Below are positions 1 through 46,713 of a DNA stretch of 46,751 bases, piece by piece (within the stretch, counting starts at the first letter, position 1; the number at the start of each line of letters is the position of its first letter). The position numbers were made by a program, and so were the translations under genes. Origin of the DNA: a virus. The stretch spans positions 1 through 46,751 of IMG/VR virus record IMGVR_UViG_3300025674_009214, one strand, 5' to 3'. The notes under the pieces are model-generated. The model worked only from the letters and a program-made list of their open reading frames with translations. It was not told the origin of the DNA and ran no database searches.

Positions 1-1491
1 TGTATAGGGTTGACTAAAGTGTTTGAATTGAGCTTTAGTCATTCCTCTACCATTATCATCAACAATCAAGTGACCATCTTTATGATAAATATGTACTTTT
101 TTGGTAGAACTATCATTATATTTTAACCCATTTCTAATTAAGTTATCTATAGCAGTACAGAATAAGGGTTCATTTACTTCTAATGATGGTAATTCATCTA
201 TTGTAACTTGAGATTTGTATGAAGTAGATGATAAATATTCCTCTAAAATTTTATTTAGGTCCAAAAATTCTTTCTCTAATACAGCATCTTTTTTAACTAA
301 ATTAGTAAATTCTTTCACTCCATTATAAACTCTTTGGGCGTGTTTAAGACCCTCTTCCAACATTTTCATTGGTGATTCCAAACGGAGTTCTTTTATTTTA
401 TCCCCTGTAATTCTTCTTTTTAATGATGATAATCCTCTTGGAATGTAAGTATTAATTCCGGAATGCATATCATGTCTTAATATTTTGGCTGCATGTTCTA
501 GATAAGCATTTTTTCTTTCTATTTCCTGTTTTTGGAGAACTGAATCTGTTATGTCAGTTACTACTTTTAATACTTTTTCTAATTTACCATTTTCATCCAT
601 AATAGGATTATAGGTACCTTGAATATAAACTGTGTCACCATTCTTTTTATATCTAACAAATTCTCCAGTTCTATATTTTCCATTTCTTAACGATTTCCAG
701 AAATTATCATATTCTTTAGATAATGTGGTTTTTTCATCTACAAATATAGAATGATGTTGATCTACAATTTCATCTAAAGAATAACCCATTAAATCCAAAA
801 AGTTTTGATTAGCTGTTATGATGTTACCATAAGGGAAGAATTCTATAACTGCATTTGATTTGTCAATAGCTGATATTACATTTTCTACTTCTTTGGATTT
901 CTTATCAACCATATCTAATGAATCCATTAATTCAGTGATGTCTTGACTTACAGAAAGAAAACCAATGTGTTTACCATTTTCATCAAATTCAGCCATCATC
1001 CAAGTATTAACTATATAACACCTTTGGTCTTTATGCATGTTAGTTACTACTTCTTGCCAGATTGATTTGTATTCAACTGTTGTTTGAATGGCGTTATCCC
1101 AAAACTCTTCATTATGTTTTTTAGTACAACCCAATGAATTAAATGGTTTTCCTAATAATTCATGTGGTTTATACCCTGATGTTCTGCAGTATAATTCATT
1201 TACGAAATTGATTTTACCATCAGCATCTGCTCTCAATACTAAACAGGAATCATCTAAAATATCTTGTAATGCTTTTCTATTTATTTTTTCTTTTCTATTA
1301 TTATTATAAACCTGCCACCCCAAATAGAAGAAAAAGGGCATGAATAAAATTACTGAAATATATTCAAATACATCTACTGATTGTGTATGAGTGATAATAT
1401 CAAATACTCCTAATGTCTTTACCACAAAGAAAGTAAGCATTATGAGAGTTGCTATTATTCCACAAAGAACTGTTTTGATATTGATTTTCAT
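1..1491 (-). CDS. Membrane PAS-PAS sensor histidine kinase (3' end outside window)
   Basis: Reading the minus strand from the ATG at 1491 gives 497 codons open to the window edge, with no stop. Two hydrophobic segments (about residues 7-27 and 43-59) suggest inner-membrane anchoring. Two PAS-like domains follow (about 72-190 and 202-320), each ending in the typical 'xDIT' linker (QDITE, TDITD). A HisKA-like helix carries the H-box LRHDMHSGI, with H340 the likely phosphorylated residue. The ATPase domain shows an N-box (DNLIRNGLKYN, 449-459) and a G1 box (DDNGRGM, 478-484). Kinases of this kind autophosphorylate on His and pass phosphate to a response regulator; none is visible here. The start overlaps the stop of the preceding virion-type gene by one base (TAATG), so it is probably translated from the same message. 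Family assignment is secure; the role in the phage is unknown. Confidence 0.9.
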   Translation of the reverse strand, partial: MKINIKTVLCGIIATLIMLTFFVVKTLGVFDIITHTQSVDVFEYISVILFMPFFFYLGWQVYNNNRKEKINRKALQDILDDSCLVLRADADGKINFVNELYCRTSGYKPHELLGKPFNSLGCTKKHNEEFWDNAIQTTVEYKSIWQEVVTNMHKDQRCYIVNTWMMAEFDENGKHIGFLSVSQDITELMDSLDMVDKKSKEVENVISAIDKSNAVIEFFPYGNIITANQNFLDLMGYSLDEIVDQHHSIFVDEKTTLSKEYDNFWKSLRNGKYRTGEFVRYKKNGDTVYIQGTYNPIMDENGKLEKVLKVVTDITDSVLQKQEIERKNAYLEHAAKILRHDMHSGINTYIPRGLSSLKRRITGDKIKELRLESPMKMLEEGLKHAQRVYNGVKEFTNLVKKDAVLEKEFLDLNKILEEYLSSTSYKSQVTIDELPSLEVNEPLFCTAIDNLIRNGLKYNDSSTKKVHIYHKDGHLIVDDNGRGMTKAQFKHFSQPYT

Positions 1492-3299
1492 TATGTGTAA
1501 GTTCCGGATACTAATGATGGTGTATAACCTTCAGTTGAGTTAATTACTTGACCTTTATTTAAGGTTATACCCATATTAAATGCAGTTAATCCAGTTGTTG
1601 TTTTTCCATCAACTATTGATGCACCTTTTGCACCTAATCCAATTACATATTGTTCGGATTTTGCGTTTAGAGTAATAGTAAAGGCTCCATTAAAGTATAC
1701 TGATGTTTCTCCTTTATTTATAATTGATGGGTAAATTTTACCGCTAACCTGCCAAGTAGTAGCACCGGTTTTTTCATCTAATGTTCCTTTGTCGACTTCT
1801 GCCCATTGTATGGCATTTTTAGCAGCTAATCCACCAATAGTGTTTTCTTCACCTCCACCTCCAGCAGGTTGATCTTCATATACTCCTGGTAGTGCTATAA
1901 TAATAATAGATTCTGTACTTCTATTAGTATAATTACCAGTAATAGGGTATGAACGTTTAGAATCAGCTGGTGCAGTGTAGGGAGCTTCTAAATTATTATC
2001 TATAACCCATACTTTATCACTTTTACTATACCATAAAAATGTTGATTCACCATTAATGGTTCCTGAGTAGGTTGGTAGTTCGTTAATTTTTGTTGATAGA
2101 GATCTTGTTAATTCTCCTTGAGCATACTTATTCTCACCATTTACTGTTACATAATCAACTGCTTCAGGATATAAATTACTTTGTGATTCTGATGATGGTT
2201 CTTCTTTGTTTGTAGTACCTTCAAATATGGTTCCTAAATTTTGATATTCTTCTGCTTCTTTTTGAACAATATCTTCAGACCTAGTTTTGATTTGTGTTGT
2301 TGTATAGGTTCCAGCATATAATGCAGTAACATCAGCTTTGATTTCTCTTTTAGCTAAACGGTTTTGAGCCATAATAGAAGTGACTCCAAACTCTTTATCC
2401 ATATTACTATCATTAACAATCTCCTTCACTCTAGATAATTGATTATCAAGAGCTTCTCTTATTGCTTGAGCATTAGTAGTTGATACATTACTATCTACTC
2501 GCATTAGAGTATTTTTAAAGGTATTTTTAGAGTTTTCATCCGTTGAAATAGATAGGAAATCATTATCTCTACAAAGGGATCCTATTTGAGAATAAAAACT
2601 TTCTTTAGCTTTATTTAATGTTTTACCACTAGCTGCCCTATGTGCTGCTTCTCCTGCTACTTCAGCTGCTGATTCTAGTGTGGTGGCTAATCCTACTACT
2701 TTAAGAAAATCGCCATCCCCAGCTGCTAAATCGATAAAGTTTTCTTTTTTAATTCTTTCTCGTTTAGAAGCAGGAATATTAATATCATATACTTTAGCTG
2801 CGAATTCAAAAAATTCGGCTGTTGCCTGATTTTCTGATTTACCTGTATCCATTATCTCTTTAATAGCAGTAGTAATAGGAGAGATAATAGTTGAACCCTT
2901 AGGTGCTTTTAAAGTACCTGTAAATGCTACACCTGTTACTGTATCAGTTCCTCCTGTTAGCTCTATATCTCCCGAAGGAATAAAATTAAATGTAAAGAAT
3001 CCGTTTGCATCTGTTGTGGTGGTTATTCCTTCAGCTACAGCTAAAACTGTTGCTCTGGCAATAGGTCCATCAATCCCCTGACCTGAAAAACCCCCAAAAG
3101 CTGGTCCATTTCCTGTGGAACCCGCACCTAGTTTTTTTATCATTTGGAGATAAAGATTTTCCTTTTCTCTCTTTTCAGCCTCAAATAAAGCTAATTCTCT
3201 TAAATATTTTTGTTTAGCTTCTTGGATTGAAAGGTTAATATTATCTGGTCTTTGTAGAAATATTTGCCAAGATCCGGGATTAGGTACACCTAGTAACAT
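1491..3299 (-). CDS. Large virion-type protein with carboxypeptidase-regulatory-like domain
   Basis: 602 residues with no signal peptide. After a charged helical N-terminus (about 25-55) comes a beta domain (about 77-140) of the type GPIARATVLAV...TTTTDANGFFTF...GGTDTVTG...GTLKAPKGSTIISPITT. I recognise this from adhesin-like and marine phage structural proteins, where it resembles carboxypeptidase regulatory-like domains. The middle is rich in Ala, Glu and Lys and probably helical. The C-terminal 120 residues are beta-rich and Gly/Thr-rich, ending VSGTYT. The likely role is a virion surface or tail-associated protein. An ATATTTATAA motif lies 14 bases upstream of the start. The stop overlaps the ATG of the histidine kinase gene. 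The exact virion position cannot be told from sequence alone. Confidence 0.65.
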   Translation of the reverse strand: MLLGVPNPGSWQIFLQRPDNINLSIQEAKQKYLRELALFEAEKREKENLYLQMIKKLGAGSTGNGPAFGGFSGQGIDGPIARATVLAVAEGITTTTDANGFFTFNFIPSGDIELTGGTDTVTGVAFTGTLKAPKGSTIISPITTAIKEIMDTGKSENQATAEFFEFAAKVYDINIPASKRERIKKENFIDLAAGDGDFLKVVGLATTLESAAEVAGEAAHRAASGKTLNKAKESFYSQIGSLCRDNDFLSISTDENSKNTFKNTLMRVDSNVSTTNAQAIREALDNQLSRVKEIVNDSNMDKEFGVTSIMAQNRLAKREIKADVTALYAGTYTTTQIKTRSEDIVQKEAEEYQNLGTIFEGTTNKEEPSSESQSNLYPEAVDYVTVNGENKYAQGELTRSLSTKINELPTYSGTINGESTFLWYSKSDKVWVIDNNLEAPYTAPADSKRSYPITGNYTNRSTESIIIIALPGVYEDQPAGGGGEENTIGGLAAKNAIQWAEVDKGTLDEKTGATTWQVSGKIYPSIINKGETSVYFNGAFTITLNAKSEQYVIGLGAKGASIVDGKTTTGLTAFNMGITLNKGQVINSTEGYTPSLVSGTYT

Positions 3300-3322: not shown

Positions 3323-4012
3323 TTAACTTTTTACAAGATATCTATTTTTCTTTCTAATTAAAGTAATAGAATCAGAATAAAGAGAGTCACCTTCCATGTC
3401 CATAATTTCGTTAGGATTAAATTGCGCTCCTAAAAATCTAGTTTCAAAATGTAAATGAGGTCCTAATGAATTTCCTGTACTACCTATTCTACCAATAGGT
3501 GTACCATTTGTAACGGTATCTCCTTCTTCTACTAATAATTCTCTAAAATGAGCATAGTAAGTTTCAATACCATTAAAGTGTCTAATAATAACTAAGTTTC
3601 CATATCCACCATTATATCCATAGCGGGACCATCTTACTACTCCATCAAAAGCTGATCTAGCAGTATCTCTATTATTGTATCCAATATCTAGAGCACCATG
3701 CCAACCTTGACGTCTATAACCATAACCACTTGTAACTTTACCTCCTACAGGAAAAGTAAATTCACCTGTATCTAAAACTAAAACTAAATTTACTGTATCA
3801 GGATATCCCTTATAAGGTTTAAAGTGCATATAACTAAGATCTCCTCCTTCATATAGCGTGTCAGCTTTTAAAGTGTCGGGAATTATGGGTAAAGCTTCAT
3901 CTTGAATTTGTATTGGAACTAGTTCTGGTATTGGGTGTTGATTAGTATATGTTTTTTGCATGAACATAAAACTAATTGCCAACAATAGCATTGCTAAATA
4001 ATATTTTTTCAT
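3323..4012 (-). CDS. Exported M23 (LytM-type) zinc peptidase
   Basis: I take the ATG at 4012 rather than the upstream TTG at 4084, because the protein then begins with a signal peptide or anchor (MKKYYLAMLLLAISFMF). The M23 domain occupies the C-terminal two thirds. The zinc ligands are visible as H-x3-D in GWHGALDIG and H-x-H in GPHLHFETR, with a further His in TYYAHF. M23 enzymes cut peptide cross-links of peptidoglycan from the outer face of the wall. With the lytic transglycosylase at 5970-6401 it gives two complementary wall activities in one gene run. It could act in lysis, or as a virion-borne entry enzyme if the N-terminus is processed. Family assignment is firm. Confidence 0.92.
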   Translation of the reverse strand: MKKYYLAMLLLAISFMFMQKTYTNQHPIPELVPIQIQDEALPIIPDTLKADTLYEGGDLSYMHFKPYKGYPDTVNLVLVLDTGEFTFPVGGKVTSGYGYRRQGWHGALDIGYNNRDTARSAFDGVVRWSRYGYNGGYGNLVIIRHFNGIETYYAHFRELLVEEGDTVTNGTPIGRIGSTGNSLGPHLHFETRFLGAQFNPNEIMDMEGDSLYSDSITLIRKKNRYLVKS

Positions 4013-4128
4013 AATAAATATTTGGTTGAAAAATATGGCTAGATTAAGCCTCGATATGTAATCGTTGGAAATACATATGAACAAAGTGTTGTAAAATATA
4101 ACTTGGAACTAATTGAACTACCGAGTCA

Positions 4129-5088: not shown

Positions 5089-5110
5089 ATTTTTAGTTTT
5101 AAATATTAGT

Positions 5111-5181
5111 ACTCCCAGGAGGAATCGAACCTCCATCAAAGCTTTAGAAGAGCCTCGTTTTATCCGTTAAACTATGGGAGC
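5111..5181 (-). tRNA. tRNA-Arg (anticodon UCU)
   Basis: A 71-base cloverleaf folds by eye on the minus strand. It has a 7-bp acceptor stem (GCTCCCA with TGGGAGT, one G-U), a 4-bp D stem (GTTT/AAAC), an anticodon stem AGGCT/AGCTT with loop CTTCTAA, a 4-base variable loop, and a T arm GGAGG-TTCGATT-CCTCC. Anticodon UCU reads AGA (and AGG by wobble), an Arg codon favoured in AT-rich genomes. CCA is not encoded. It lies within the run of exported proteins and excludes the longer start of the lipoprotein gene. Confidence 0.93.
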
Positions 5182-5969: not shown

Positions 5970-6401
5970 TTAGTGGTAATATGCTAATAGATTAAGTTCT
6001 TTTTTTACTTTATTCCAATAACATTTAGTATTGTGATGGCTACTACCAGATGGTCCTCCATTCCAGCATCGAGCTATTGTCTCCCAGTCTGAATCAGAAT
6101 GATAGTATTCTCTCCAGATATGAAACATTTCAATTGATTTCTTTACACTAAGACGATCAGTATAAACATATCGTACATCGTTTCCATTTTTTTCTTGGAT
6201 ACGATTAACTTCTCTAACCATAATAGGCCATATCTGCAGCACTCCAACTGCCCAACCTCGATCTCCTTTAGCGGTAGAATCTCCTCTTGATTCAACTTGA
6301 ATAATTGCTTCTACTAAGCAGTCAATAGGCATATCTTCATATTGTGCTTGAGATACGCTTAAAGATAAAAGCAGTGGGATAGTTAATAATAATTTTTTCA
6401 T
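5970..6401 (-). CDS. Exported lytic transglycosylase-like (SLT/lysozyme fold) protein
   Basis: 143 residues starting with a signal peptide (MKKLLLTIPLLLSLSVSQAQ). The domain begins DCLVEAIIQVESRGD, where the Glu is the likely catalytic acid, followed by RGWAVGVLQIWP and later IARCWNGGPSG, the typical SLT-type G-x-LQI and A-x-x-WNGG motifs. These enzymes cleave the glycan strand of peptidoglycan. It is the first gene after a well-formed host-type promoter (6415-6446) and heads the run of exported proteins. It is likely a lysis or wall-remodelling enzyme acting in the periplasm. Confidence 0.85.
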   Translation of the reverse strand: MKKLLLTIPLLLSLSVSQAQYEDMPIDCLVEAIIQVESRGDSTAKGDRGWAVGVLQIWPIMVREVNRIQEKNGNDVRYVYTDRLSVKKSIEMFHIWREYYHSDSDWETIARCWNGGPSGSSHHNTKCYWNKVKKELNLLAYYH

Positions 6402-38988: not shown

Positions 38989-39273
38989 TTACGCACCCTG
39001 CTTGAATTCTCCAAATAAACCATAACGTTTCTCTGGTTCTTCTTTAACTATAATTTCCTCTTCTTTTGTTTTGAGAGCGTATAATTTAGAGTCCAGGGGG
39101 GCTAATCTATATTCCCCCCTGAACTCTGTAGCTTGGAAGTAAGCTTCTAATACGTCCGTAAGAGATGGGTGGATTACTTCATAAGGATCATCCTTTAACA
39201 TCCACTTATCTCCAGGTGGTACCCTAACTGCTATGAGTTCAGGAAATTCAACTATTTCAGTCCGGTTTTCCAT
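38989..39273 (-). CDS. Small acidic protein after groEL, unknown
   Basis: 94 residues. ELIAVRVPPGDKWMLKDDPYEVIHPSLTDVLEAYFQATEFRGEYRLAPLDSKLYALK, then an acidic tail and YGLFGEFKQGA. It overlaps the groEL stop by one base (TAATG), so it is translated with the chaperonin. No family is recognised. It might be a phage-specific chaperonin partner, but only position suggests it. Confidence 0.55.
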   Translation of the reverse strand: MENRTEIVEFPELIAVRVPPGDKWMLKDDPYEVIHPSLTDVLEAYFQATEFRGEYRLAPLDSKLYALKTKEEEIIVKEEPEKRYGLFGEFKQGA

Positions 39274-40904
39274 TAAAACATACCATTATAGTTAGGAGTA
39301 GCTTCTTCCTCACTAGGTTCTTCTACTACTACACATTCTGTTAATAATACAGTTCCAGCAACTGATGAAGCATTTTCAAGGGCTGTTCTAGTTACTTTAG
39401 TTGGATCAATAATTCCTGATTTTCTCATGTCAATATAAGATTCATTTTTTAAATCAAATCCTGTCCAAGTATCATTTGAATCTAGGATTGTATTGATAGT
39501 TTCATAAATAGTACTAGGACCATAACCTGCATTGGTTAAAATCTGTTCTAGTGGTTTATAACATGCTTGTTTTACTAAATCAATACCTAAACAAAAATCC
39601 TGAGATAAAGAACTGTCTTTATGGTTTAGAGCTTCACTTGCATAAATGAGTGCTGCTCCACCTCCGGGGACAATACCTTCTTCTAATGCAGCTTTTGTTG
39701 CATTGAGAGCATCATCTACTCGATCTTTTTTCTCATGCATTTCTGTTTCATTATAACCACCAACATGGATTATAGAAACACCACCAACCATTCTACCTAA
39801 ACGATCTTGTAGTTTTTCCATTTCAAATGGTGATGCCGCATTTTCAATTTGTGATTGAAGTTCACCTACTCGACGATTAATATCTTCAACTTTACCTTTA
39901 CCATCAACAATTGTTGTTTGGTCCTTAGTAATAGTAACTGTACGAGCTTCTCCAAACCAGTCCCAACTGAATTTCTCAAGTTTCATTCCTTTGTTTTTAT
40001 CAAAAACTTGACCACCAGTTAGTACTGCAATGTCTTCAAGAACTAATTTTTGTCTATCACCGAATTCAGGTGCTTTTACAGCTGCTACTTTTAGAGTACC
40101 TCTAGCTTTATTAACAATAAGAGTAGCCAAAGCTTCATTATCAATATCACTAGCTATAATTAAAAGTGATTTATTAGTTGTAGAAACACTTTCCAGAATT
40201 GGTAATAAATCCTTAACAGTAGAAAATTTATGATCAGCAATTAGAATATAAGGATTTTCTAAAGTACAAGTCATAGTAGAATTATCAGTAACAAAAAAAT
40301 GAGATTTATAGCCTCTATCAAATTGCATACCCTCTACTGTTTCAAGATAAGTTTCTCCAGATTTAGATTCTTCAATATGCACAATCCCATCTCTGCCCAC
40401 TTTATCAATTGCAGAGGCAATAAGTTTTCCTACTTCAGGGTCATTATTGGCTGAAATAGTGGCAACTTGTTCTAATTGTTCTTCAGAAGAAATATCTTCT
40501 GCTACTTTTTCTTTAAGACAATCTACTACTTTTTTAGTGGCATAATCAATCCCTCTTTTAACTTCTACTGAGTTAACTCCTCTATTAATACTAGATAAAC
40601 CTTTTTTAATAATTTCTCTTGCTAGTAGAGTAGATGTAGTAGTACCATCCCCTGCTGAGTCTGCAGTTTGAATAGCTGCTTGTTTTACTAACTGTACTCC
40701 TGATTCCTTAATGGGATCTTTTAAGTTAATATTTTTAGCTACAGTTACTCCGTCTTTTGTGGATTTAATGGGTTCATTAGCTTTGGAGATTACTACGTTT
40801 CTACCATTAGGACCTAAAGTAGAAACAACAGCATCTGCTAATGTATCAATACCTGTAACTAGTTTTTCTCGAGCATCTGCTCCTAATTCAATAATCTTTG
40901 ACAT
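39273..40904 (-). CDS. groEL: Chaperonin GroEL (Hsp60)
   Basis: 543 residues, full length. The ATP-site motif is SAGDGTTTSTLLARE (83-97), with STLGPNGRNVVI (28-39) before it and DGVTVAKNINLKDP (51-64). VDDALNATKAALEEGIVPGGGAALIYA is the diagnostic C-terminal block. KKLEKFSWDWFGEARTVTITKDQTTIVDG is slightly unusual in the apical-intermediate hinge (W-D-W-F in place of the common L-G-x-A). The C-terminus is EEATPNYNGMF, lacking the G-G-M repeats of bacterial groEL. It follows groES by 10 bases. Confidence 0.97.
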   Translation of the reverse strand: MSKIIELGADAREKLVTGIDTLADAVVSTLGPNGRNVVISKANEPIKSTKDGVTVAKNINLKDPIKESGVQLVKQAAIQTADSAGDGTTTSTLLAREIIKKGLSSINRGVNSVEVKRGIDYATKKVVDCLKEKVAEDISSEEQLEQVATISANNDPEVGKLIASAIDKVGRDGIVHIEESKSGETYLETVEGMQFDRGYKSHFFVTDNSTMTCTLENPYILIADHKFSTVKDLLPILESVSTTNKSLLIIASDIDNEALATLIVNKARGTLKVAAVKAPEFGDRQKLVLEDIAVLTGGQVFDKNKGMKLEKFSWDWFGEARTVTITKDQTTIVDGKGKVEDINRRVGELQSQIENAASPFEMEKLQDRLGRMVGGVSIIHVGGYNETEMHEKKDRVDDALNATKAALEEGIVPGGGAALIYASEALNHKDSSLSQDFCLGIDLVKQACYKPLEQILTNAGYGPSTIYETINTILDSNDTWTGFDLKNESYIDMRKSGIIDPTKVTRTALENASSVAGTVLLTECVVVEEPSEEEATPNYNGMF

Positions 40905-46020: not shown

Positions 46021-46713
46021 TTATTGATAAGTGTTTAAACCATAGCCAATCATATGCATTACCTCTTGTTTAGCAGTTTTATCGTGCTCTGCAAATACAC
46101 CGCTAACTTCAGATGTAATCATACTGGCTCCCATATGTTTTACTCCTCTACAAGATACACAATTATGTGTAGCTTGCATAACAACCATCACGCCTTTATT
46201 TCCTTCTACTACTTTAGAAGTGGCATTGTGGATAGCCATTGTGAGTTGTTCTTGAATTGCTCCTCGTCTTGAGAAATGCTCTACAATACGATTTAATTTA
46301 GATAAACCAATTACTCGTCCCTCTTCACCAGGAATATAAGCAATATGTGCTTTACCTAAAATTGTTTGGTGGTGGTGTGAACATTGAGAAACAACAGGGA
46401 TATCTTTTTCTAATACAATTCCTTTATAACCATCAGATGGAAATGAAGTAACATCAGAAATGGAATCATATCTACCCCTCCATAAATCGTTTACATATGC
46501 TTTAGCAACACGTTTTGGTGTTTCCATTGAATTAGGATCGTTTTCCCAATCGCATTTTAGAGCAGTAAGGAATTTGCCATAATGGTGAGCTGCTTCATTG
46601 ATCATTTCTTGTTTTTGTTCATCCGTTAAGGGATAATCTGCAGCAACTCCATTTGCAAATCCCTTTTGTACACATTCTATATCATTGTGTAATTTTCTTC
46701 TGTTATTCTCCAT
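46021..46713 (-). CDS. folE: GTP cyclohydrolase I (FolE)
   Basis: 230 residues. Zinc and catalytic residues: C111-S-H-H114 in SQCSHHHQTI, and C185/C188 in THNCVSCRG. The other blocks are ETPKRVAKAY, HIAYIPGEEGRVIGLSKLNRIVEHFSRR, QEQLTMAIHNA and MGASMITSEVSGVF. It makes 7,8-dihydroneopterin triphosphate from GTP, the first step of folate and of 7-deazaguanine (preQ0) synthesis. In phages it is often linked with 7-deazaguanine DNA changes; the other enzymes are not in this window. Confidence 0.95.
   Translation of the reverse strand: MENNRRKLHNDIECVQKGFANGVAADYPLTDEQKQEMINEAAHHYGKFLTALKCDWENDPNSMETPKRVAKAYVNDLWRGRYDSISDVTSFPSDGYKGIVLEKDIPVVSQCSHHHQTILGKAHIAYIPGEEGRVIGLSKLNRIVEHFSRRGAIQEQLTMAIHNATSKVVEGNKGVMVVMQATHNCVSCRGVKHMGASMITSEVSGVFAEHDKTAKQEVMHMIGYGLNTYQ

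Follow-up and report, generated by a model that had tools for sequence, protein, structure and literature searches.

Introduction

What does a membrane histidine kinase (HK) do on a phage genome, and with which partner does it signal? The question is raised by the gene at the left edge of a 46,751-base IMG/VR fragment (record IMGVR_UViG_3300025674_009214), which was analysed over its full length and is called the window below. The fragment plainly comes from a phage, as it encodes a DNA polymerase, a clamp loader, GroEL and members of other phage families. Two-component systems as such are familiar, and annotations of single kinase or receiver genes exist for phages (PMC7289586). The original prediction, made from the letters of the window, took the gene for a sensor kinase by which a phage may rewire a two-component system of its host. 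From a survey of the relatives of this gene we arrive at another reading, namely a dedicated, apparently phage-exclusive two-component system of a kinase, a receiver (RR) and a third protein (G3), with an output at the membrane that is most likely the control of lysis; we put the probability of this reading at about 0.5. The direct evidence consists of the operon structure in the relatives, the co-occurrence of the three genes, their catalytic residues, a distribution restricted to phages in the collections searched, and proximity to lysis genes.

The kinase gene of the window

The kinase gene occupies positions 1–1491 on the minus strand, which also carries the protein domains and protein-coding genes whose coordinates are given below up to position 6401. 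It codes for 497 residues in a frame that runs without a stop into the contig edge, where its 3' end is lost, and is short of about 43 residues by comparison with a complete relative of 540 residues. Kyte-Doolittle hydropathy places two transmembrane (TM) segments joined by a short loop at 1306–1470 (residues about 8–62, the segments lying near residues 1–30 and 39–60). Two PAS domains follow, at 937–1257 (residues 79–185, Pfam PF00989) and 544–837 (residues 219–316, PF13426); PAS_9 (2.5e-24) and PAS_3 (1.4e-20) each match in two stretches. The dimerisation and histidine-phosphotransfer region lies at 292–534 and has the H-box LRHDMHSGINTYIPRGLSSLKRR, with the codon of H340 at 472–474. The catalytic ATP-binding domain begins within 1–162, with N450 of the N-box at 142–144 and the G1 box DNGRG at 43–57. 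Its partial match to HATPase_c (PF02518) scores 25.5 bits, slightly below the cut-off of 26.4, because the contig ends inside the domain; the G2 box would fall past the edge. None of the Pfam HisKA models matched either the window kinase or its full-length relative, and the H-box was assigned by alignment and by matches to kinases in the PDB. H340, D341, N450 and the DNGRG box do not vary among 52 non-redundant relatives, every one of which matches HATPase_c, and the H-box (RHDMHSG), G1 and G2 patterns were found in 151 of 153 kinases. The predicted architecture of two TM segments, two PAS domains, H340 and the N and G1 boxes is thus confirmed by Pfam, hydropathy and alignment.

A suggestion that the PAS domains might sense light finds nothing in its support, the matches being to ordinary PAS domains, with GAF domains in some relatives. 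The PDB structure nearest to the second PAS domain is that of a sensor protein (3ewk), which we take to be the FAD-binding MmoS; the idea that the kinase senses redox or energy state is no more than a lead.

A chimeric join of this segment to a host contig is unlikely. The codon usage of 1–1491 agrees with that of the remaining window (r = 0.92), the same kinase family occurs in about 200 of the phage loci that were fetched, with further genes of the window matching the contigs of these loci, and a phage homologue is 81% identical. The gene encodes a genuine phage-borne membrane PAS histidine kinase, which is probably functional.

The TAATG overlap of one nucleotide between the kinase gene and the gene directly upstream of it in the operon (1491–3299, 602 residues) is real. 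The label 'virion-type' that had been given to the upstream gene goes back to weak matches only, such as one to CarboxypepD_reg. Two genes upstream of the kinase is an M23 peptidase with a hydrophobic N-terminal segment (3323–4084, PF01551, 6.5e-26), a candidate endolysin or virion hydrolase. With an SLT-type murein transglycosylase that has an apparent signal peptide (5970–6401, PF01464, 24.8 bits against a cut-off of 21.3), it makes two murein hydrolases within 5 kb upstream of the kinase; either of them could be a virion enzyme instead of a lysis enzyme.

Other contents of the window are a tRNA-Arg (TCT) at 5109–5181, adjoining small secreted-looking ORFs whose signal peptides end in FSQ or SQAQ and suggest a host among the Bacteroidota. 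A long block for sugar or surface modification extends over 15529–36166 (glycosyltransferases, a nucleotide-sugar epimerase, a cupin/nucleotidyltransferase, a Nol-like carbamoyltransferase and a methyltransferase), several genes of which are common to other phages that carry the kinase operon. A phage GroEL (phrog_5725) is encoded at 39273–40904 and a GTP cyclohydrolase I (PF01227) at 46021–46713.

The complete operon in relatives

A search of viral contigs returned a relative, P0002, on a contig of 88.7 kb, that is identical to the window kinase at 81% over all 497 residues. Lack of a G2 box in the missing C-terminus had been named as a point that would speak against the kinase; the complete relative (540 residues, PF02518 2.4e-13) has the box, GSGLGL, followed by a stop. 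The end of its gene overlaps by four nucleotides a receiver gene of 145 residues, after which comes G3, of 195 residues. The earlier statement that no response regulator is present is true of the window, since the contig ends there, and fails for the relatives, in which the receiver gene follows; an RR and a G3 are predicted from these to lie past the left edge of the window.

The linkage was counted with an HMM for each part in those loci that had enough flanking sequence. Loci anchored on the receiver contained the kinase in 130 of 131 cases and G3 in 129 of 130, and those anchored on G3 contained the receiver in 71 of 71 and the kinase in 67 of 67. The intergenic gaps are mostly −4 and −1 nucleotides, and the order HK-RR-G3 is near-obligate. 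An orphan kinase can be rejected, since in almost every relative a receiver gene comes next. Pairwise divergences of the kinase core, the receiver and G3 are correlated (Mantel r 0.65–0.75, with permutations never above 0.17), a correlation to which shared descent contributes. The N-terminal part of the kinase is variable, whole proteins having 363–717 residues with PAS domains in 48 of 52 and GAF domains in 6 of 52; judged from these sequences, the inputs vary and the output is fixed. In seven loci (L220, L112, L116, L134, L145, L129 and L213) two ORFs of the kinase family precede the receiver, and in L208, L217 and L223 the kinase genes have just about 300 residues; these are candidates for split, duplicated or PAS-less sensors.

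The features of the receiver were read from relatives, since the window ends before the point at which its own receiver gene is predicted. The protein of the 88.7-kb contig clears the Pfam cut-off for Response_reg (PF00072, 33.0 bits against 30.2) and has no further domain. Residues D9, D10, D63, S94 and K116 are invariant in 206 of 206 sequences, and the receiver carries a conserved CVFVDLNIIGSSFDGIELIRK. Its predicted model has a pTM of 0.80, and the nearest folds are those of Rcp1-type and bacteriophytochrome response regulators. With a receiver fold, the phosphorylation residues and no output domain, the relatives encode a single-domain response regulator, and the conserved residues of both proteins support the proposed phosphotransfer between them.

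In G3, an EGN motif is conserved in the N-terminal part; the protein also has a long helix, predicted to be cytoplasmic, and a pair of TM segments at its C-terminal end that carry the motif WSNLFGILLTNSFSIIGTIMGVK. Hydropathy showed this pair in 95 of 97 proteins. It was modeled as a single helix of about 120 residues and a TM hairpin, with a mean pLDDT of 86 and a pTM of 0.39 that leaves the overall arrangement uncertain. Comparison with Pfam and PHROG gave no informative family and no holin match, and the sole real match by structure search was to a protein, itself uncharacterised, from an uncultured phage of the Caudovirales. These comparisons do not place G3 among the recognised holins or antiholins, though it could act in a holin-like manner.

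Distribution of the cassette

Relatives of the receiver were found in 590 viral stretches of IMG/VR, those of a divergent receiver in 56, and those of G3 in at least 596, so that the cassette is present on at least about 590 contigs of uncultured phages, the shortest of about 4 kb and the longest of 298 kb. The receiver and G3 had no match in 50,697 phage records, and the matches of the kinase in that collection were weak and look like bacterial DNA inside phage records. The view that full sensor kinases are rare on phages thus holds for the records of cultured phages that were searched, from which this one is absent, but not for uncultured phages, on whose contigs it is common. The receiver had no match in 72,556 plasmids. 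Among the matches listed from 84,980 species genomes there was one close relative of the receiver, 61% identical, and the others were unrelated receivers near 30%. The contig of this relative (16.8 kb, binned in a metagenome-assembled genome) has HK-RR-G3 followed by PhoH-, sigma- and terminase-like genes and is phage-like by its reading frames; no other relative was found in 245 genomes of the same phylum. The cassette is therefore likely absent from cells, and a cellular ancestor was not found among the matches listed from the species genomes, in the 245 genomes of the phylum, or in the plasmids.

The window kinase and that of the 88.7-kb contig are 81% identical, yet the DNA polymerases of the two are only 26% identical, a contrast that points to movement of the cassette between distant phages.

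These data bear on the original proposal, in which the kinase, the receiver, or both would enter host signalling, the receiver serving for example as a CheY-like decoy, a phosphate sink or a stand-in for a single-domain regulator of the host, and G3 only as a membrane tether. The receiver does consist of a single domain whose fold is closest to Rcp1-type receivers, and it is the most conserved part of the cassette (mean identity 76%, against 67% for the kinase core and 55% for G3), a pattern that contact with a conserved partner, perhaps a protein of the host, would produce. However, the kinase has its own receiver in the relatives, so that host regulators are not needed, and the phage almost always brings its own kinase and membrane protein as well. 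The phages that carry the cassette also differ greatly in gene content, which is awkward for a partner-specific hijack of one host pathway. We consider host rewiring less likely, and favour a system dedicated to the phage.

Genes next to the cassette

When the neighbouring genes were clustered, holin-like and murein-hydrolase families were among the commonest, including PF05105 holins, Amidase_2 with PG_binding, GH19, M15_3 and phrog_33083 endolysins. In deduplicated loci the density of five holin and endolysin families was 0.40 genes per kb in the −3 kb bin, 0.27 in the −2, 0.16 in the +1 and 0.12 in the +2 bin, and about 0.01 outside these four. Since these families had been chosen from the neighbourhood itself, the test was repeated with four Pfam families over 37 whole long contigs. 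Fifteen of the 23 lysis-family genes above the cut-off are no more than 4 kb away from the receiver, where 2.45 would be expected; 200,000 random placements never gave that many, a significance that is overstated in that the contigs are related and the four families were picked after the neighbourhoods had been seen. When one near-duplicate contig was left out, the count was 13 of 21 against 2.2 expected. By family, the genes within 4 kb were 5 of 7 for GH19, 4 of 4 for M15, 5 of 6 for holins and 1 of 6 for Amidase_2; in five contigs of 73–273 kb the sole Amidase_2 gene is 55–159 kb from the receiver. The deduplicated loci that could be tested numbered 75, and 38 of them had no member of the six scanned lysis-type families close by. 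Proximity to holin and endolysin genes, which the original prediction did not raise, is the strongest signal from the context; the association is strong and not universal. The neighbouring enzymes belong to unrelated families (GH19, M15, Amidase_2, phrog_33083), and their order and strand vary between loci, which makes repeated origins of the association probable. In L075, the only testable locus that lacks the kinase, an amidase gene immediately precedes the receiver.

Several small genes accompany the cassette. Family 3 (L050:3309–3563 and relatives; 79 loci) comprises proteins of about 82 residues with hydrophobic segments, which have no informative match in Pfam or PHROG and are candidates for a new holin or antiholin. 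Families 5, 7 and 24 (L188:1753–1953, L206:8259–9371, L172:7550–8044) are small membrane or coiled-coil proteins, found in 46 loci ahead of the kinase, in 33 behind G3 and in 15 between the receiver and G3, and are possible accessory parts of the cassette.

Such genes, together with the fact that most of the kinases and G3 are predicted membrane proteins, would also fit a module against superinfection or envelope stress, in which the kinase senses secondary adsorption or membrane damage and the receiver and G3 seal the membrane or exclude other phages; the module would be placed among late genes without timing lysis. Sensing of secondary infection at the same membrane is known from lysis inhibition in T4 and ICP1 (PMC11413866, PMC7182436). 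The PAS and GAF domains are, however, predicted to be cytoplasmic and the loop between the TM segments is short, which makes a direct periplasmic trigger improbable, and none of the genes next to the cassette was recognised as an exclusion gene; we regard such a module as quite unlikely. It is very improbable that the receiver binds a protein such as a phage sigma factor and so controls late transcription, lysis being just one of several effects: sigma-70-like genes are near the cassette in two loci (L003, by a Sigma70_r2 match, and L090, by a reading of the sequence only), but no sigma factor was recognised in the 60 most frequent neighbour families, and G3 is nearly always present.

A possible mechanism and its relation to known systems

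Returning to lysis control, we propose that the membrane kinase would sense a signal with its PAS domains, or in some cases GAF domains, autophosphorylate on H340 and hand the phosphate to the stand-alone receiver. As the receiver has no DNA-binding domain, it would act by protein contact, most likely with G3, its constant neighbour, so that the phosphorylated receiver would take effect at the membrane. G3 would in turn act on the holin and endolysin machinery, and the time of lysis would follow the state of the infected cell. Because lysis genes are often next door, this would be the most economical output; adjacency is not function, and accessory late genes can gather near lysis modules. A fuller version, in which a His-Asp phosphorelay that diversified in phages times lysis in hundreds of uncultured phages, with G3 as a phosphorylation-gated holin, antiholin or trigger, is tentative and in our estimate falls a little short of even odds.

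The closest known systems are bacterial pairs of a PAS kinase and a single-domain receiver of the Rcp1, bacteriophytochrome-RR or CheY type. They share with the cassette the layout TM-PAS-PAS-DHp-CA, the H, N, G1 and G2 boxes, the receiver fold with its full phosphorylation site and stand-alone form, and adjacent genes with a 4-nucleotide overlap. Unlike these, the cassette is confined to phage or phage-like contigs as far as the searched collections show, with no closely similar cellular pair found, its kinase has an H-box that no Pfam HisKA model matches, and a third membrane gene is nearly always there. In T4 lysis inhibition (holin T, antiholin RI) and in the ICP1 pair TeaA/ArrA, lysis is timed through antiholins (PMC7182436, PMC11413866). 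The likeness is that of phage-encoded sensing tied to the lysis machinery at the inner membrane, the effect of the cassette on lysis being a proposed one; the difference is that the cassette consists of a kinase, a receiver and a coiled-coil membrane protein instead of antiholins, and no homology was seen. CDS-30 of Alteromonas phage V22, an auxiliary metabolic gene annotated as 'histidine kinase/response regulator (CheY-like)' (PMC7289586), is alike in being a signalling gene, by annotation, of a marine phage. It is a single gene, and neither the kinase nor the receiver of the cassette matched V22 in the phage records, if V22 is among them. The open-access papers that were searched hold no description of a phage-dedicated operon of kinase, receiver and membrane protein.

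If the proposed role is correct, phages would run their own phosphotransfer sensing with a nearly obligate new membrane partner, where the phage decisions known to us so far rest on antiholins, peptides or repressors. What a lytic phage measures before lysis would become testable by the standard biochemistry of two-component systems, and a function would be assigned to uncharacterised genes in many environmental viruses.
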